Shown in pieces: positions 764 to 23,180 of a stretch of 29,572 nt of DNA; positions within the stretch are counted from its first letter, which is position 1; the number at the start of each line of letters is the position of its first letter. Source of the stretch: a virus; the IMG/VR virus record IMGVR_UViG_3300038429_000025, positions 1-29,572 of that record. The stretch is one strand, 5' to 3'. The notes under the pieces were generated by a model. That model saw nothing but the letters and a program-made list of their open reading frames with translations, did not search any database and had not been told where the DNA came from. Made by a program: the position numbers and the translations under genes.

Positions 764-1294
764 ATGGCATTAAAAATAAACGGCTCAAAAGTTCCAATAG
801 TAACCGTTGAAGACCTGGAAAAAGCAAGGGGTACTAGGCTTAAAATGTCCGGTAGGCCGTCAAAATACTCCGCTCTCCTCGCTGCCGATATATGCCAAAG
901 GTTAGAGTCAGGGGAGACTTTAACTAGTATTTGTAAGCCTTTAGCCATGCCACATATAAGCACAATATATGACTGGGAAGCGGCGTTGCCCGAATTCTCC
1001 GAAGCTCTTGCACGGGCACGGCGGCGCTCGGCTCATTCCCTGGCGGATCAGTCTTTGGATATAGTCGATCATAGTAAGAATTCACTTGACCTGACGCAAG
1101 TTCGATCCGCTGAGATTCGATCAAAAACCCGCCTGGAATTGGCAAAGTTCCATAATCGCTCTTACTTCGGTGACAAGGTTCTAGTCCAGGGTGACATTGT
1201 AATTGAAACTATGGCGGATCGGATCAAGCGTTTAACGGGTGCTCCGGTGGAGATTCCGGCAGAGTTTAGGCACATAGTTAAACAGATTAAATAG
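764..1294 (+). CDS. terS: Terminase small subunit (Sf6-like family)
   Basis: This 176-aa protein would recognise the packaging start site and recruit the large subunit. After a 28-residue lead-in it shows the diagnostic pattern GRPSKYS, then the helix-turn-helix segment GETLTSICKPLAMPHISTIY, then W-x6-F-x3-LARARR (residues about 31-88). This matches the Sf6/terminase-small-subunit-like family. The C-terminal part (RSAEIRSKTRLELAKF) resembles the oligomerisation helices, and the tail would contact the large subunit. No SD precedes ATG 764, whose promoter starts transcription almost at the codon. ATG 845 (MSGRPSKY) is an alternative start but has only a distant AAGGGG. Unusually, the large subunit gene is more than 4.5 kb downstream. 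Confidence 0.8.
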   Translation: MALKINGSKVPIVTVEDLEKARGTRLKMSGRPSKYSALLAADICQRLESGETLTSICKPLAMPHISTIYDWEAALPEFSEALARARRRSAHSLADQSLDIVDHSKNSLDLTQVRSAEIRSKTRLELAKFHNRSYFGDKVLVQGDIVIETMADRIKRLTGAPVEIPAEFRHIVKQIK

Positions 1295-1491
1295 ATACAT
1301 GATTAACTTCTTACCTTAGTTAATGCGGTGGCTGTTCTGGCCGTCTCCAGGTGGCTGCTGACCGTGGCCCCTGGCTCCCCTCTCCTCCCTCTAACATCTT
1401 TCATGCAATCCGTTATAGAATCATCCTGTTCTCGGCAGGATTCGGATGTTTATGGCGGATTATACTTACCTACTTACCTGGGGGTGATCGG

Positions 1492-1522
1492 GGGGGATGC
1501 CCGGACCTCCTCCGGCACCCCC
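1492..1522. other. GC-rich hairpin, no U-tract
   Basis: GGGGG (1492-1496) pairs with CCCCC (1518-1522). An inner stem pairs GCC(C)GG (1499-1504) with CCGGC (1512-1516) around the loop ACCTCCT. No T-run follows, so it is not a classical terminator. It could be a DNA-level recognition structure or a transcript-end structure. Confidence 0.4.
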
Positions 1523-1665
1523 ACCCTTCCCCTATGTAACATCCACTGAGTATCACACTCACAACTTCACCATTGCCTCCTTATAGGAGTACCTGTCCAA
1601 AGTAACTTTGACTTCTGTGGTTTTCCTTCCCGGAAATAATTTTTTTAGATTTTGGAATAAAGGGG

Positions 1666-1694
1666 TTGACAATCATGAAAGTTTTATTTATTAT
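1666..1694 (+). promoter_or_regulatory. Strong sigma70 promoter
   Basis: TTGACA (1666-1671), exactly 17 bases, then TATTAT (1689-1694). The -35 is consensus, the -10 is 5 of 6, and the surroundings are very A/T-rich. Transcription would start near 1701, with the SD GGAG (1715-1718) placed correctly for the ATG at 1724. Confidence 0.8.
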
Positions 1695-1723
1695 TTTTAT
1701 TATATTTAAATATTGGAGTAAAT

Positions 1724-2095
1724 ATGACTCGTCAAGAATGTCGTTCAATAACAATCCATTTAATTGAGACTGGAGAAATTAAGAAAAAGGATTTTTGTGA
1801 GAAATGTGGTTCTGGTAAATTTGTTGAATGCCACCATAATGATTACACAAATCCCAAAGATATTAACTGGTTTTGTAAAAGTTGCCATAAGTTTTTGCAT
1901 GGAGAACTGAAAAGGAATGGTGAAAGTATCCCTATGGACAAACCAGACACCGGTAGCGTCTTAAATATTAAAGGGATTGATGATAATTTAATGATGGAAT
2001 TAAAGATTATGGCGGCTCGCAAAAGAGTAACAATGCGAGAACTGGTTATAGAAGGTATCCACTTGGTTATAGCTAGGAATGATAAGGGGAAGTGA
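1724..2095 (+). CDS. Zinc-finger/HNH-like plus ribbon-helix-helix protein
   Basis: This 123-aa protein has two parts. Residues 25-55 form a zinc-binding unit: CEKC (25-28), CHHND (36-40) and CKSCH (51-55), spaced like a small HNH/zinc-ribbon fold. Residues about 79-117 (LNIKGIDDNLMMELKIMAAR, then TMRELVIEGIHLVIA) have the beta-strand and two-helix pattern of Arc/CopG-type ribbon-helix-helix DNA binders. A sequence-specific regulator with an added zinc module is the likeliest role, and a targeted nickase is possible. The gene has its own near-consensus promoter and SD and lies at the left edge of the accessory island, which suggests early independent expression and perhaps autoregulation. Recognition of both domains is by pattern only. 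Confidence 0.65.
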   Translation: MTRQECRSITIHLIETGEIKKKDFCEKCGSGKFVECHHNDYTNPKDINWFCKSCHKFLHGELKRNGESIPMDKPDTGSVLNIKGIDDNLMMELKIMAARKRVTMRELVIEGIHLVIARNDKGK

Positions 2096-2147
2096 TAGTC
2101 GCCTCTTGGTTCGGGGTTATAGAGAAGACAAATAAAAAGGAGGATGT

Positions 2148-2486
2148 ATGAAACTGGATGATCTGACAATCGGCGAAGTTAAGGAATTGGCTAAGATGTT
2201 CAACTCACAATCAGCCCCTTGCAATGATTCACCTTGGGAAATCGGGGCGTGTTATATGATCCGTACTGTGACGATGATCGACACAGGCATTCTTGTGGCC
2301 GTGACTTCGCAGGAATTGGTGTTGGAGGAGGCCGCTTGGATTGCCGATACTGGCCGATTCGCACAAGCTATAGAGAAAGCGGAGTTTGGGGAAGTCGAGC
2401 CTTTTCCTGAAGGGAAAGTTATAATTGGCCGTGGCAGTATTGTTGATGCTGTTAAAATTAAAGTTGCACCCCGGAGCCAAAAATGA
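2148..2486 (+). CDS. Conserved phage protein, DUF6948-like
   Basis: This 112-aa protein is preceded by a perfect AAGGAGG SD (2137-2143). The central pattern YMIRTVTMIDTG, LVLEEAAWIADTG and the end VEPFP-x6-GRGSIVDA match an uncharacterised family often found near terminase or early accessory genes in phages, which I recall as DUF6948. It has no membrane segment and no catalytic motif that I recognise. The stop codon overlaps the start of the low-complexity frame at 2483 by ATGA, which would couple their translation. The function is unknown. The gene call is firm and the family name is from memory. Confidence 0.75.
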   Translation: MKLDDLTIGEVKELAKMFNSQSAPCNDSPWEIGACYMIRTVTMIDTGILVAVTSQELVLEEAAWIADTGRFAQAIEKAEFGEVEPFPEGKVIIGRGSIVDAVKIKVAPRSQK

Positions 2487-2749
2487 ACGCCGCAGTTATG
2501 AGAGCAGGGTTTGATATGTCGGGGTCGGGGTCGCGGTCGGGGTCGGGGTCGGGGTCGGGGTCGTGGTCGCGGTTGTGGTCGGGGTCGGGGTCGCGGTTGT
2601 GGTCGCGGTCGGGGTCGGGGTTGGGGTCGGGGTCGCGGTCGGGGTCGTGGTCGCGGTCGCGGTCGTGGTCGCGGTCGGGGTCGCGGTCGCGGTCGCGGTC
2701 GTGGTCGCGGTCGGGGTCGCGGTCGGGGTCGTGGTCGTGGTCGTGGTAA
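2483..2749 (+). CDS. Low-complexity Ser-Gly/Ser-Arg/Ser-Trp repeat frame (uncertain)
   Basis: If translated, this 88-aa frame begins with an ordinary 12-residue lead (MNAAVMRAGFDM) and then consists only of dipeptides SG, SR, SW and SL to the stop. It starts with an ATGA overlap on the preceding gene, the arrangement of translational coupling used repeatedly in this operon, and that is the main argument that it is expressed. Against it, the underlying DNA is a hexamer repeat that leaves every frame on both strands open, so openness is not evidence of coding. The +1 shifted frame would instead encode an Arg-Gly protein (2511-2798) ending in the SD of the next gene. It may be a decayed or repeat-invaded gene. 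Confidence 0.3.
   Translation: MNAAVMRAGFDMSGSGSRSGSGSGSGSWSRLWSGSGSRLWSRSGSGLGSGSRSGSWSRSRSWSRSGSRSRSRSWSRSGSRSGSWSWSW
2521..2748. repeat. Degenerate hexanucleotide tandem array, 38 units
   Basis: The array is 38 uninterrupted 6-bp units of form G-N-G-G-T-C, where N is G, C or T but never A on this strand. Three units end in TT instead of TC, and the last ends in TA. The 6-bp phase never slips. Units 4-7 give four GGGG tracts separated by TC. Strand asymmetry is extreme, with almost no A on the + strand. Such arrays can expand or contract by slippage. It is a contiguous repeat, not a CRISPR array. Confidence 0.95.
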
Positions 2750-2797
2750 ACAACTATATGTCTTACTCTTGCAGAAGACGGAAGCGTGGAGGGGATG

Positions 2798-3232
2798 ATG
2801 AGAATACTGGTGGCCTGCGAATTCTCAGGAGTAGTGCGACGTGCTTTTGAGGCAAAAGGGCATGATGTCATTTCGTGTGACATTCTCCCTTCCGATGACA
2901 ATTCTCCTTATCACTACCAAGGGCCTGTTGAAGATTTAATTGAACAGGGGGGCGGCTTTGACCTGATGATAGCACACCCGCCTTGCACCCACTTAGCATC
3001 ATCCGGGGCGCGCCATTTTGCAGCTAAGAGGGCTGATGGCCGACAGCAACAAGAGGAAGGAGAGGGGGAAATAACCATGTGCCTTGTGATCGAGCATCTA
3101 GGTAAAGAGCACCTTTGTTATTGCTGTTTACATAAGGCAATTCATAAAGGACAAGAACCGTGCCGGACTTGCATCTTCGTGGAGAAGGCTGCTGACTGCC
3201 GGTTTGAAGATGACGGGGAGGTTAGGGAATGA
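2798..3232 (+). CDS. Truncated DNA methyltransferase-like protein fused to Cys-rich tail
   Basis: The chosen start at 2798 has GGAGGGG (2788-2794) directly upstream; GTG 2786 and ATG 2795 are in frame but poorly spaced. Residues 1 to about 84 (MRILVACEFSGVV, CDILPSD, DLMIAHPPCTHLASSGARHF, KRADGRQQQ) match the first part of a widespread phage SAM-dependent methyltransferase family, often annotated as DNA cytosine methyltransferase. From memory, full-length members run to over 200 residues. Homology stops abruptly at GRQQQ and the frame continues through E/G-rich codons, which are the SD of a separate small gene, into 51 residues with several Cys. It has the SAM-binding start and the PPC motif but lacks the rest of the fold. 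It is probably an inactive deletion remnant, although the fusion is intact as a reading frame. Confidence 0.6.
   Translation: MRILVACEFSGVVRRAFEAKGHDVISCDILPSDDNSPYHYQGPVEDLIEQGGGFDLMIAHPPCTHLASSGARHFAAKRADGRQQQEEGEGEITMCLVIEHLGKEHLCYCCLHKAIHKGQEPCRTCIFVEKAADCRFEDDGEVRE
3077..3232 (+). CDS. Small Cys-rich (zinc-binding) protein
   Basis: This 51-aa protein starts at an internal ATG (3077) with an excellent SD, AAGGAGAGGGGG (3057-3068), in frame with the methyltransferase remnant. It contains C14, C16, C17, H19, H23, C29, C32 and C39, a likely structural zinc site of a kind common in tiny phage proteins. Its end overlaps the following gene by ATGA. I think this is the real, independently translated gene at this spot and that the upstream remnant was joined to it by a deletion. 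The function is unknown. Confidence 0.55.
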   Translation: MCLVIEHLGKEHLCYCCLHKAIHKGQEPCRTCIFVEKAADCRFEDDGEVRE

Positions 3233-5867: not shown

Positions 5868-8801
5868 ATGGCAAAACCAACAGCGGCAGAACAACAGGCT
5901 CTAGACCTTCATTTCCAAAGATGCAATTGGGACTATCCCTATTTTGCCGCTCATAATCACATGGTACAAAACAAGTCAAACGAACTTGTTTATTTCAAAC
6001 TCAATGAAGTTCAAGTAATACTAGAAGAAATTTGGGCTGATATTGAAAAATCAGGACGCAGAATAAGGCTTTACTGTCTCAAGGGTAGGAAACAAGGTAT
6101 TTCCACATGGTTTGAATCTCGCGGCCATTGGATGATAATGGGTAAAGGACAGTTTGTAGAGGATAGTAAAGGTAACATCTCTTATCTTGGCCCTACAAAG
6201 AATCAAAACATGAGTATCATAGCTCATGATCCCCCTACTACTGAAACATTATTTGGTATTTGTAAGAGACTTGACGAAAATCTCCATCCTGAATTTACTT
6301 TTCCTAAAGCAAAAGATAACGAACACGTTATTCACTATAAAGACCCTACAAACCCCAAAAGTCCTGACTCTTTAGATTCATCAATCATTGTTGGAACCGC
6401 TAATACCAAGGATTTTGGATCGGGTATGACTTTAACAATTTCGCATCGTTGTCTTTCTCTCGACACTCCAATTATTTGTGAGCATGGGATACAGAAATTT
6501 GCTAGAGATGTAAAAATTGGAGATGTTGTTGTCACTCATCAAGGCAATTATGGAAGGATATCAGCAATAAAAATAACTAAATCAAAAGACTTACCTGACA
6601 ATAAAAGAATGATAAAAGTGCAGCCTTGGCTTGGGTTGCCAATTACAATGACACCACAACATAAAGTTTGGACAAATATGGGGTGGGTCAAAGCCGGTGA
6701 ACTTGACCCTTATTGGCATCAATTAGCAATGCCTATCAGAGATATAACAGAAAGGATAGATAATTTACCATTCCAAGTCAATAGAAGTAAATTTGGTCCT
6801 TCATATAAAGGGCCATTAGAATTTCCCATTAGCAAAGAGACAGGTTTTTTTATAGGATATTATCTAGCTGAAGGCAATGTAGGAGTCAATAAATATGGCC
6901 CTTGCAGAATAACATTGGCTTTACATGAAGATGAAGAACCTTTTGCAATAAGAGCATATGAGGCTGTAAAAGAGTTTTGTAAAAGCACTCCCAAATTTAA
7001 AAGTAAAAAAGATTCAAAAACAAAAACGTGTTGCTTGGATAGTACCCCACTAGCAAGATTTGTAGCAGAAAATTTTGGGGCTGTAGAAGGTAAACATATC
7101 CCTGATTGGATATTCAATTGCGGAGTTGAATTTTGTACGGGGCTTGTAACTGGGTATCTTTCAGGGGATGGATCAAAAGGGTTATATCCAAGTCGATATA
7201 AATATACCAGTAACGCCATAACTGCAACGAGTATAAGATCATCTCTCGTTTATCAAGTTCGTGATTTAGTTGCTTCTTTAGGGTTGGGATGGGGGAGTAT
7301 AAGATATAAAACAGGCGGTGTTTATTACGGGAGAAATTGTCAAAGTGCATGGATATTGACCTTTAATGGCAATTGCGGTATGCGCCTCCGGGAATTAATG
7401 GGCATTGCTTTTGAAAAAGAAAACAAGGAATCTGCTCAAAAATATAGAATTGATAACCAAAATAACCAGATATGGATGAAAATACGCTACATTAGCGAAT
7501 CTGAAAGTGACGAAGTAATTGATTTTGAAGTGTGCCATTCAGATCATAGTTTTAGGGTATCCAGCTTTTCAGTTTCAAATTCGGAACTCGCAAAATGGCC
7601 CTCTGAAAATGTCAAAGACTTGCTACTCTCACTCGACAATGCTATGCCCGACCATGAGAATACGGCTGTTTTGAACGAAAGCACGGCAAAAGGTGTTGGT
7701 GGAGAATTTCATAAAGGTTATCTAAACTGCCGTTATATATACGAAGTTTATCAAGATAAAAATCAAGTTGCACATTGGCGAATGGAGATTAATCCTGATG
7801 CCGATGAAAATAACGAATACTCTCGGATATTTATTCCGTGGTTTATAACGAAAGAATACGCTCGGCCTGTGCCTGATGGTTTTAAAGTAACTTTGGAAGA
7901 GAAGGGATGGAAAGAAAAATATAATCTCACTGATGAACAAATCCAGTGGTATCGTTGGGCGAAGCAGAACCTTTGTGGTGGAGATAAAAATCAGAGATCA
8001 CAGGAATTTCCGAATTGTTGGCAAGAGGCTTTCATATCTTCAGGGGAACCGGCTTTTGATGTTCCGACAATCCTGCATCTCAAGGAACTTTGTGAGCCGC
8101 CGATTGCACGGTATGACTGCTTATTATCCAGTGGTCAGTTTATAGCCAAACAGGATGGCGCAATCAAGGTGTGGAGAGAACCGGACAGAAGCGGGAATTA
8201 CGTTATAGACGCTGACGTTTCGGAAGGTCTTGAGCATGGTGATTTCCATTCCGCTGACGTTTTGGATCATGATACCGGTGAACAGGTCTGTCATTATCGC
8301 GGTAAGATGGAGCCTTGGGAATATGCTGCGCTCCTTATGGCTTTAGGGAAACGGTATAACGAAGCCTGGATTGTGCCGGAGAAAAATAATCATGGTCAAC
8401 AGGTGATCCAGGAGCTTATCAAGGCGGATTATCCAAACATCTACATGGAGATGATTGAAGAACCGCCGAATAAACCACGGAAACGGTTTGGGTGGGTGAC
8501 TACCGGGGCGGGTGATCGTAAGCGTCAAGCTCTGATTGATAACGGAAAGAAGATGATTTCTGAAGGTAATCCTGGTATTAACGATCCTCAGACTTACGAA
8601 GAGATGTTGAACTTCAAGCGGCAAGCTGACGGCAAAGAACGGGCTGACAATGGAACATTTGATGATTCGGTTATGTCGTGGTTGATTGGTCAATATGTCC
8701 GTGAAACTCTGCCCTATGCTACACGGACACGCAAAGGTCCGGGAGATAATAAAGGTCGCGGTGGAAATCAAAAAAAACCTTCATCAAAAGCATATTATTG
8801 A
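5868..8801 (+). CDS. terL: Terminase large subunit with intein
   Basis: The 977-aa precursor would splice to about 600 aa, a normal size for the packaging ATPase/nuclease. The ATPase domain shows the Walker A-like loop GRKQGIST (73-80). The Walker B strand MTLTISHR is cut by the intein and resumes as SELAKWP, whose Glu is the catalytic residue. Coupling motif III is NESTAKG (603-609). The nuclease domain has DADVSEG (Asp781, Asp783), VPEKNNHG (Glu838) and FDDSV (Asp932/Asp933), the three acidic sites of the RNase H-like fold. It works with the small subunit and portal to cut concatemers and pump DNA into the prohead. The SD is weak (GGGAAG). The start fits the leader hairpin, and no in-frame alternative nearby looks better. 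Confidence 0.93.
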   Translation: MAKPTAAEQQALDLHFQRCNWDYPYFAAHNHMVQNKSNELVYFKLNEVQVILEEIWADIEKSGRRIRLYCLKGRKQGISTWFESRGHWMIMGKGQFVEDSKGNISYLGPTKNQNMSIIAHDPPTTETLFGICKRLDENLHPEFTFPKAKDNEHVIHYKDPTNPKSPDSLDSSIIVGTANTKDFGSGMTLTISHRCLSLDTPIICEHGIQKFARDVKIGDVVVTHQGNYGRISAIKITKSKDLPDNKRMIKVQPWLGLPITMTPQHKVWTNMGWVKAGELDPYWHQLAMPIRDITERIDNLPFQVNRSKFGPSYKGPLEFPISKETGFFIGYYLAEGNVGVNKYGPCRITLALHEDEEPFAIRAYEAVKEFCKSTPKFKSKKDSKTKTCCLDSTPLARFVAENFGAVEGKHIPDWIFNCGVEFCTGLVTGYLSGDGSKGLYPSRYKYTSNAITATSIRSSLVYQVRDLVASLGLGWGSIRYKTGGVYYGRNCQSAWILTFNGNCGMRLRELMGIAFEKENKESAQKYRIDNQNNQIWMKIRYISESESDEVIDFEVCHSDHSFRVSSFSVSNSELAKWPSENVKDLLLSLDNAMPDHENTAVLNESTAKGVGGEFHKGYLNCRYIYEVYQDKNQVAHWRMEINPDADENNEYSRIFIPWFITKEYARPVPDGFKVTLEEKGWKEKYNLTDEQIQWYRWAKQNLCGGDKNQRSQEFPNCWQEAFISSGEPAFDVPTILHLKELCEPPIARYDCLLSSGQFIAKQDGAIKVWREPDRSGNYVIDADVSEGLEHGDFHSADVLDHDTGEQVCHYRGKMEPWEYAALLMALGKRYNEAWIVPEKNNHGQQVIQELIKADYPNIYMEMIEEPPNKPRKRFGWVTTGAGDRKRQALIDNGKKMISEGNPGINDPQTYEEMLNFKRQADGKERADNGTFDDSVMSWLIGQYVRETLPYATRTRKGPGDNKGRGGNQKKPSSKAYY
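6450..7580 (+). other. Intein with LAGLIDADG homing endonuclease in TerL
   Basis: The 377-residue intein spans residues 195-571. It begins with Cys195 after ISHR and ends VSN, followed by Ser572 as the +1 extein nucleophile. Block B is T262-P-Q-H265 and block F is VIDFEVCHSDHSFRV (550-564). The residue before the terminal Asn is Ser570, not the usual His, which is a minority variant. A two-motif LAGLIDADG endonuclease sits inside, FIGYYLAEG (328-336) and VTGYLSGDG (427-435), each with the expected acidic residue. Removing it rejoins Walker B (LTISHR-SELAKWP). The insertion is seamless and in frame, and the intein DNA looks more A/T-rich than the C-terminal extein. Confidence 0.93.
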
Positions 8802-20710: not shown

Positions 20711-21333
20711 AACCGGGAAAGTATGATTTCATAATAGATCAGGGCGCGAATTGGGGGCAGACATTCTACTTTGGCAATAGCGCGATAGGTCCGACTCTTC
20801 TCCCTTCTTCTCCTTATACGATAGTTGTTGATGGAGTAGTAAAAACTTTCACTCGTAATGATGGTGGCTCTTTTCTGACTGATGGCCTTGCAATCGGTAA
20901 CTATCTGGTCTGTTCAGGATTCGCAAATAAGGTTAATAACGGCTCTCACTTGATTACGAATGTCACGGCCACGGTGATAACCTGTTCTGGCGATACAATG
21001 ACCACGGAGACGGCTTCTCCGTCGCTTTCGGGACAAAGTATTATGGTAGTCAAGGCTATGGACTTAACGGCGGCTACAGGTGCTTCCATGATCCGTCAAC
21101 AGTACAGTGACGTAAGCCCTGTTGCCACAATAACGGTTGCTTTCTCCGGCACTCCTACTGATGGTTCCATAGCTCTTTCTCTAACTCATACTCAAACGGC
21201 GGCGATTCCTGCCGGGAAAGATGTTTGTTCACAGGCAAGTCAGTATGTATGGGATTTGAACGTAACTCAGTCAGGGCTGGTCACAAGAATGTTAGAAGGT
21301 AAAGTCTCTATTGATCCGAGTGCTACCCATTGA
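20707..21333 (+). CDS. Tail/fibre-associated protein with inserted domain
   Basis: A TTG start, with AAGGAG (20695-20700) six bases upstream, overlaps the previous stop (TTGA). The 208-aa product opens [18 protein letters not shown] and resumes after an insert with [14 protein letters not shown], then ends [21 protein letters not shown], the layout of a common phage protein next to tail fibres. Residues about 30-115 are an inserted segment ([47 protein letters not shown]) resembling a recurrent beta domain in phage proteins. It is likely a fibre-attachment or baseplate-like part. There is no catalytic motif. Confidence 0.6.
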
Positions 21334-23180
21334 GCGATTTTGAAGAAACCACAATAGTTGAAACGATAGCAGAAAACGAGATTGTGGTTATTCCACAACC
21401 TAATGCAGCCGTTATTGTTGCGGTCCCTGCTCCAGAACAGCCAATTATTGTCTTTGTTGGCAATTCTCCGGGTGCTAAAGGTGCTGATGGTGCTCCTGGT
21501 GCTCCTGGCACTCCAGGCACTAACGGGACAAATGGCACTAATGGGACTAATGGTACGAATGGAACAAACGGTGCTCCGGGTGCTGATGGTGCTCCTGGTC
21601 CTAATCTGGTATCGACTTCGACCTCTACAAATATCACTGGTCTTTTGAAAGGCGACGGTTCCCATGTTAATCAGGCGACTGCCGGGGTGGATTATATTAC
21701 TCCTGCGGAAGTCCCTACCACTCTCCCTCCGAATGGCTCTGCCGGTGGAGATTTAACCGGGAATTATCCAAACCCTACTTTAGCGGCGCTCGGTTCACCC
21801 CCTACTGGTAGCTATACCAATGCGAATATCACTGTTGATGCAAAAGGACGGGTGACGGCTGCGGCGAATGGATCAAGTAGCGGTGCTGGAGATGTGGTTG
21901 GCCCTGCTTCAGCGGTTGACAATCATGTGGTATTTTTCGACGGCACAACCGGTAAATTAATCAAAGATAGCGGTTTGACTCTTTCCGGGTCAAATACTGG
22001 AGATCAGGATTTATCTGGTAAAGAAAATACACTTCCACTTACTACTCTTGGTGATACGCTTTATCAGGATGGATCAGGTCGTCAACGGCTGGCTGGAAAC
22101 ACAACCACTTTTCAAAAGTTTCTTTCACAAACTGGTAACGGGTCAATCTCGGCGGCTCCTTCATGGCAAACTATACCGATGCAATCAACTTTAACGTATT
22201 ACTTTCAGGACACTGCCTCGGCGGTTGCGACGTATAAAAAACAAATTACAACTCCTTATACTCCTGAAACTACAGAAACATATACTCCGGCAAACGGGAC
22301 TCATGTCATCCAGAACTTTATCACTGATCCTGGATTCCCTGGGTTGGCCTTTATTCCTGCGGGTCAATTTGAGTTCCATATCCATGCGTCAAGGGCTGGA
22401 GGCAACTTCACTGTTTATGCTGAAATATGGGAAACAGATTCTGCCGGGGTTGATATTGCTTTAATCGGAACGACTGAGCACTCTACTAATACTACAACTT
22501 CAGAGGCGGAATATCGTTTATTTTTCGTTACGATAAACACCTATACATTGGCTTCGACGGCAAGCCGGATTGTGTGCCGAATTTGGGCTATTACAACGTC
22601 TTCTGCAACCTGTAACCTATACGTTGGTGATACGGCTGATTCACACTTGACTCTGCCGACAAATACGGTGGACGCAAGTAACTTTATCCCTTATATCGGG
22701 GCAACGGCTAATATTAACACAGGCGCGTTCACCGTAACCTCGGCTGGTTTTTCAGGGCCATTAACCGGGAATGTCACAGGTAACTGTTCGGGTTCCTCTG
22801 GTTCTTGTACGGGTTCATCAGCATCGTGTACCGGGAATTCAGCCACGGTGACGGGATTTTCTCCGACTGGCGGGAAAACACTTACATTGACTGATAGTAC
22901 AACCCTTGGGAATGCCTCTATATCTCTTGCCAATGGTAAAGCTCTTACTCTCACGGGCAATTTAACAGCAAGTTCGGACGCTACTGTTTCAGGGACAAAT
23001 ACAGGCGATCAAACGAGTGTAAGCGGTTCATCTGGTTCCTGCACAGGAAATGCAGCGGGGCTTTCAGGCCAATATATCGACTGGAACGCCTCAAGCGGTG
23101 GAACTTCAATCGCAAATAAACCATCTATCCCTTCTGCTGCGTCAAATATTTTATTACAACAGAATTTTGGAGGTTTCTAA
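21330..23180 (+). CDS. Collagen-like tail fibre protein
   Basis: This 616-aa protein starts at TTG 21330, overlapping the preceding stop (TTGA); the SD is poor, so coupling is likely. Residues 48-92 are 15 perfect Gly-X-Y triplets, rich in GTN and GAP, expected to form a collagen-like triple helix. Downstream come fibre signatures: [31 protein letters not shown], two SGxNTGDQ motifs (near residues 224 and 554), and Cys/Ser/Gly-rich [13 protein letters not shown] repeats near 486-508. The middle (about 285-450) is a globular beta domain, perhaps receptor binding. It should be a trimeric fibre contacting the host. It ends with GGAGG, the SD of the next gene. Confidence 0.82.
21471..21605 (+). 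repeat. Gly-X-Y coding repeat (15 triplets)
   Basis: The 9-bp units encode [15 protein letters not shown], then six GTN, then GAP, GAD, GAP and GPN. The six GTN units use different synonymous codons, so the repeat is maintained at protein level rather than being a fresh DNA expansion. The flanking GAP/GAD units are nearly symmetric. Confidence 0.9.

Follow-up and report, generated by a model that had tools for sequence, protein, structure and literature searches.

The window, that is, the whole stretch of virus DNA that was analyzed (29,572 nucleotides; IMG/VR record IMGVR_UViG_3300038429_000025), carried two overlapping genes on the plus strand. The first gene (2148-2486) encoded a protein of 112 aa that ended in RSQK before a TGA stop and belonged to a group of relatives named family A. 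The second gene (2483-2749), whose layout was common to its relatives, encoded 88 aa in 88 codons, namely the head peptide MNAAVMRAGFDM (2483-2518) followed by 38 dipeptide units (2519-2746), each made of Ser and a variable residue X, and it was terminated by TAA immediately after the last unit. The start of this (Ser-X)n gene overlapped the stop of the upstream gene as ATGA (2483-2486). A ribosome-binding-like GGAG, 6 nt ahead of the ATG at 2483, was seen in CCGGAGCCAAAA (2471-2482, plus strand) within the end of the upstream gene. The second gene is probably translationally coupled to the first through the ATGA overlap.

The sequence-only reading had described the repeat, with an offset of 2 nt (2521-2748), as 38 GNGGTC units in unbroken 6-bp phase, with variation nearly limited to one site that was never A and with all six frames free of stop codons. 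A unit-by-unit count confirmed 38 consecutive hexamers in perfect phase without any indel, in agreement with TRF, which returned a single period-6 array (2518-2747, score 285, 0% indels). Positions 1, 3, 4, and 5 of the hexamer (G, G, G, and T) were invariant in all 38 units, and position 2 was G in 16, C in 13, T in nine, and A in none. The restriction to one site was not complete, since position 6 also varied slightly (C in 34, T in three, and A in one), which left 34 of the 38 units as strict GNGGTC. The absence of stop codons from all six frames held for the window array, owing to its TCG-NGG composition, but not for the relatives (n = 81), in which in-array stops were found in every one of the five frames other than the Ser frame (2-26 arrays per frame). 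The identical 38 units, except for two base differences, were present in L129/L209, an independently assembled contig of a different sample, so the assembly of the array was sound.

Downstream, the cassette was adjoined on the plus strand by a truncated DNA methyltransferase-like gene (2786-3232), which, as had been noticed earlier, was incomplete and matched only positions 13-115 of the 247 of phrog_757. Its N-terminal part was followed by a C-terminus rich in Cys (CYCC...CRTC), as though a zinc-ribbon-like piece had replaced half of the protein, and a 99% identical copy was present in contigs L128 and L129. Elsewhere on the plus strand, two small HNH/zinc-type endonuclease-like genes (298-687 and 1724-2095; Pfam HNH and phrog_2340) lay on either side of the terminase small subunit gene. 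Within the terminase large subunit gene (5868-8801) lay what looks like an in-frame intein that includes an endonuclease domain of the LAGLIDADG type. The intein started at ...HR/CLSLDTPI and ended at ...SFSVSN/S, with weak Pfam matches to LAGLIDADG_3 and Terminase_6C. A tail-fibre-like protein (21330-23180; phrog_1806) contained collagen-like GTNGTNG repeats (TRF 21516-21568).

The reading frame of the array

In the coding phase, the array (2519-2746, plus strand) consisted of 38 TCG-NGG units. The N was the first base of the X codon, and the three unit types encoded Ser-Gly (GGG), Ser-Arg (CGG), and Ser-Trp (TGG), which supported the earlier suggestion that the array is under selection; Leu replaced Ser in three of the 38 units. 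The base A was missing at N in the window array because its Arg was written CGG, while relatives used AGG instead, so that N was G, C, or T in the former and A, G, or T in AGG arrays. The two Arg codons rarely occurred together, and at least 90% of the Arg codons were of one type in 64 of 72 arrays.

The Ser frame was identified as the coding frame by the switching of Ser codons, the third-position freedom of the head, the tracking of starts and stops, and the degenerate arrays. The dominant Ser codon among 81 arrays was TCG (50), TCA (15), AGC (10), TCT (5), or TCC (1), and the choice tracked the GC content of the genome. In two degenerate arrays (L273 and L311), the Ser-X pattern was kept with mixed codons. 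At the same position in relatives of the upstream gene, an ORF opened with MNxAxLR(T/A)GFDx and ran in frame into Ser-X repeats. An alignment of 56 heads, which had been selected for R7 and G9, showed M or V at position 1 in all of them, D or E at position 11 in 50, and A at position 4 in 41. The mean identity at the first, second, and third codon positions was 0.71, 0.86, and 0.48, respectively (codons 4-11, 56 sequences), and thus the third position was the least conserved. For the 76 loci found by the DNA pattern of the array alone, the Ser frame had an ATG no more than 20 codons away in 58 cases (13 and 11 in the other frames) and a stop no more than five codons past the array in 59 cases (9 and 8 in the other frames). 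An Arg-Gly frame (CGN GGT, in which N is silent) was also considered and rejected. Its only start in the window was TTG, starts and stops tracked it in 13 and 9 of the 76 loci, and relatives that used a different Ser codon had Gln/His, Pro, Leu, or Ala in place of its Arg. With very little doubt, the hexamer array makes up the main coding part of the second of two genes that form a phage cassette. The sequence-only reading had recognized the repeat without noticing that it has one specific coding frame and a conserved neighbor.

The Ser-X tracts were about 7-45 dipeptides long, with a median of 29. Across the arrays, the 1,861 X residues included 627 Arg, 591 Gly, and 493 Trp, and only three of 55 long arrays lacked one of these three. 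The protein, which is cationic and has a high content of Trp, Gly, and Arg, was predicted to be disordered; the AF2 model had a pLDDT of 46 and no secondary structure, and a folded β-solenoid was rejected on the same grounds. No convincing match to the (Ser-X)n gene was found in Pfam, PHROGs, or NCBIfam.

The Sm-like partner and its pairing with the repeat gene

The protein encoded at 2148-2486 likewise had no convincing match in Pfam (including its Sm families), PHROGs, or NCBIfam, and a PDB profile search was negative. Its AF2 model (pLDDT 86.3) consisted of an N-terminal helix (residues 8-18) and a five-stranded bent β-sheet (residues 35-40, 44-52, 56-64, 90-94, and 98-104), the arrangement of the Sm fold. 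Among the first 40 Foldseek matches in the PDB, nearly all were either Sm/LSm proteins or chains from complexes that include Sm/LSm subunits, with 1jbm, 1i8f, and 4f7u among those at the top; E values started at about 1.5e-3, and the target TM scores of the leading matches were mostly 0.5-0.8. In the alignment of family A (73 relatives), residues T40, T42, G47, W64, R70, and E84 were invariant, and G94, R95, and G96 were at least 90% conserved. By their positions, G47 and the GRG motif, which sits in the turn between strands 4 and 5, may correspond to the Gly of Sm1 and the RG of Sm2. The gene appears to encode an Sm/LSm-like small β-barrel protein, as far as the predicted fold is concerned. 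A second family (B), met behind other arrays, was without the RG and was homologous to family A (hhalign probability 95%, E 2.7e-8).

The two genes of the cassette were found together from whichever side the search began. Starting from the arrays, an adjoining Sm-like gene was present on the same strand in 74 of 85 loci (upstream in 65 and downstream in nine), and none of the best Sm-like matches at these 85 loci was on the opposite strand. Starting from family A, a Ser-X run was found on the same strand within 400 nt in 79 of 83 testable distinct loci, against a background of five Ser-X runs in 264 kb. Family B loci, picked without preselection for an array, had (Ser-X)n arrays in 54 of 56 testable cases. 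No other gene around the cassette was conserved. The methyltransferase gene, which had been singled out for its place beside the array, was not part of the conserved module, with the Sm-like gene as the sole conserved neighbor. A fusion of the Sm-like and Ser-X proteins, which would have indicated an interaction, was found in none of the loci examined.

The type of head followed the family of the partner. The heads paired with family A were near neutral (MNxAxLRTGFD), whereas those paired with family B were basic (K-Q-K-Y-R type); the mean net charge was 0.14 and 3.5, respectively (p = 2e-7, a statistic that ignores relatedness). In some contigs, several Ser-X genes lay in tandem, nearly identical in the head but different in the array: seven in L278 (3-505 and 1495-2632), six in L015 (about 1000-2250, reverse strand), and four in L228 (4300-8506). 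Several of the copies in L278 were chained via ATGA overlaps.

In environmental phage contigs of IMG/VR, 221 family A loci and 283 family B loci were confirmed by tblastn. INPHARED contained only two records, both metagenome-assembled (MW202573.1 and MW202825.1), and the pair in MW202573.1 was annotated as the hypothetical proteins UOF78857 and UOF78858. Plasmids gave no matches to the cassette, and all six matches in GTDB were MAG contigs; almost no isolates carried it. No description of a phage Sm-like/Ser-X pair was found in open-access papers. These results suggest that the Ser-X gene is undescribed and that the pair is a phage system of two genes that is widespread, changes fast, and has gone unstudied.

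Turnover of the array

Close relatives differed mainly inside the array. The window and L129 had three differences in 7,646 nt, two of them inside the array (p = 0.003), and all 11 differences between the window and L128 in 5,611 nt were inside the array (p = 7e-19). The sequence-only reading had proposed a comparison across related phages to see whether unit order, unit number, or only the N position differs. Among sibling phages, the differences were mostly at N; among relatives at large, the Ser codon, the unit number, and N all differed, and the unit number varied widely between arrays. The marker unit GGGGTT was shifted by two units, so some of the sibling differences may in fact be gains or losses of units that were scored as substitutions.

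The Ser codon was uniform within arrays (mean 0.956; 56 of 77 arrays pure), whereas two arrays shared their Ser codon with a probability of only 0.41. In 18 of 55 long arrays, block repeats were longer than in shuffled arrays (p<=0.05); in the window array they were not (p = 0.37). The uniformity of the Ser and Arg codons within arrays, their differences between arrays, and the block repeats are the mark of concerted evolution through the copying of units, under selection at the protein level. This agrees with the repeated expansion of a few unit types, which had been one of the earlier suggestions: the silent choices were homogenized within arrays and differed between them. The unit was 6 nt long and the changes stayed in frame, whereas a phase-variable contingency locus has a unit that is not a multiple of three.

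Selection on the protein alone is insufficient to explain one feature of the codons. NGG accounted for 89% of the X codons irrespective of the Ser codon and of the GC content of the genome, and the Gly and Arg codons stayed NGG (GGG and CGG/AGG) at 91% even in AT-rich phages with genomes of 33-42% GC. Our guess is that all of the unit types descended from a TGG unit and were then homogenized.

Among the family A contigs, 16 of 81 ended within the array, which suggests either variation of the array within populations or assembly breaks induced by the repeat. In a sibling contig (L208, 5427-5472), the array was interrupted close to the end of the contig by non-repeat sequence that contained a stop codon in frame; this is either an assembly error or a genuine break of the array.

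A possible phage ribonucleoprotein and the known systems

In the mechanism that we propose, gene 1 would provide an Sm/LSm-like small β-barrel protein and gene 2 a disordered protein with a short conserved head and a Ser-X tail. Recombination or slippage would copy and remove units of the array, always 6 nt at a time, for which reason the reading frame would never be broken. The array evolves in concert and turns over much faster than its flanks, and selection retains Ser alternating with a mix of Gly, Arg, and Trp. The head may dock on the Sm-like protein, which probably forms a ring, as suggested by the difference in head type between the two partner families, and the cationic, aromatic tail may bind RNA or another nucleic acid, or drive condensation. 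The product would be a phage ribonucleoprotein with a design like that of Sm rings with Arg-Gly tails. Because a disordered, cationic Ser-X protein has an Sm-like partner, an RNA-protein particle with its tails in trans is the most economical model. We assign a probability of roughly 0.55 to this explanation as a whole, including the cassette, its turnover, and the ribonucleoprotein; the function as a ribonucleoprotein is proposed tentatively and at somewhat less than even odds.

An Sm-like protein with a low-complexity tail is of a known kind, and there is a real chance that the cassette forms a new class. More speculatively, it could be an undescribed class of phage ribonucleoprotein, in which an Sm-like ring receives variable Ser-(Gly/Arg/Trp) tails in trans from one to seven coupled, concertedly evolving genes, perhaps as a condensate or an RNA-handling machine in an arms race with the host; we hold this fuller version to be somewhat doubtful.

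Among the other explanations, the same cassette might encode a membrane-active or toxic Trp/Arg-rich peptide for lysis, superinfection exclusion, or host takeover, with the Sm-like protein as its regulator or antidote. Cationic antimicrobial peptides have a similar Trp/Arg-rich composition, and coupled small genes, copy-number expansion, and rapid array change fit an arms race. This role is unlikely because no transmembrane or signal segment was visible in the Ser-X protein, the strict Ser alternation with Gly as a third of X is unusual in membrane peptides, and the partner has a predicted RNA-binding-type fold rather than a known antitoxin fold. Slightly less likely still, the array may act mainly as RNA or DNA, for example as a multivalent mRNA site for the Sm-like protein, with the peptide as a by-product. 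The persistence of NGG and the RNA-binding-type protein encoded directly upstream would be in its favor, but the codons in use varied for Ser (TCN or AGC) and for Arg (CGG or AGG) with the amino acids unchanged, the degenerate arrays held Ser-X with mixed codons, the conserved head was coding, and the Ser frame stopped directly after the array. A neutral, selfish microsatellite in a non-essential ORF would account for the high turnover and for the contigs that end within arrays, as simple repeats self-expand; it is improbable given the near-universal pairing with the Sm-like gene, the conserved head, the retention of Gly, Arg, and Trp in nearly all long arrays, and the rebuilding of the same protein pattern from different codons. 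The least probable explanation is the writing of the N positions by templated or targeted mutagenesis (hypermutation or a diversity-generating retroelement, in which variation is likewise limited to defined positions of a coding repeat), to which the nearly single variable position in the window and the sibling differences at N had pointed, because no reverse transcriptase (RVT_1) was found in the window, itself a genome fragment, the variation was not adenine-directed, A and C served together for Arg in only eight of 72 arrays, which random mutation at N would not give, and block repeats and widely varying unit numbers were present; the templated writing raised by the sequence-only reading was therefore not supported, while its suggestions of selection and unit expansion were.

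The cassette joins a predicted fold of the ancient RNA-binding type to a disordered polymer that is simple and tunable and whose grammar of Ser followed by Gly, Arg, or Trp has been rebuilt by evolution with different codons in many phages. If it works as we propose, with a possible role in infection, nature would offer here a minimal setting in which to study Sm-type particles, disordered tails that bind RNA, and the concerted evolution of coding repeats.

The best viral structural match of the Sm-like protein was a DUF6948-type phage protein (A0A6J5MA76, E 1e-4), and the A2 members had no Pfam sequence match to DUF6948. Members of the Sm/LSm/Hfq superfamily (archaeal SmAP, eukaryotic Sm, and LSm) share with the protein at 2148-2486 the helix and five-stranded barrel (predicted here); the Gly after strand 1 and, in family A, the Arg-Gly in the turn between strands 4 and 5, placed like that of Sm2, may be further common features. 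Unlike them, it lacked a detectable sequence match to the Sm families of Pfam and PDB and had an insert between strands 3 and 4, and the tail of the cassette was encoded by a separate overlapping gene. SR-related proteins, defined by S+R of at least 70% of a low-complexity domain, also have Ser-Arg-rich low-complexity tails linked with RNA-binding type proteins, and RS-domain proteins occur in some viruses (PMC9479744). The window array had 35 Ser and 13 Arg among 76 residues (about 63%), below the 70% threshold of that paper; its other X residues were mostly Trp and Gly, and no RRM, DEAD-box, or packaging domain was present. The nearest described case is that of the Borg Sm ribonucleoproteins, which carry amino-acid tandem repeats fused to the Sm N-terminus (PMC9879509). 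Both systems combine an Sm protein of a mobile element with a fast-evolving in-frame tandem repeat that is predicted to be disordered; unlike the fused Borg repeat, that of the cassette was encoded by a separate Ser-(Gly/Arg/Trp) gene, overlapping and often multi-copy, in phage contigs.
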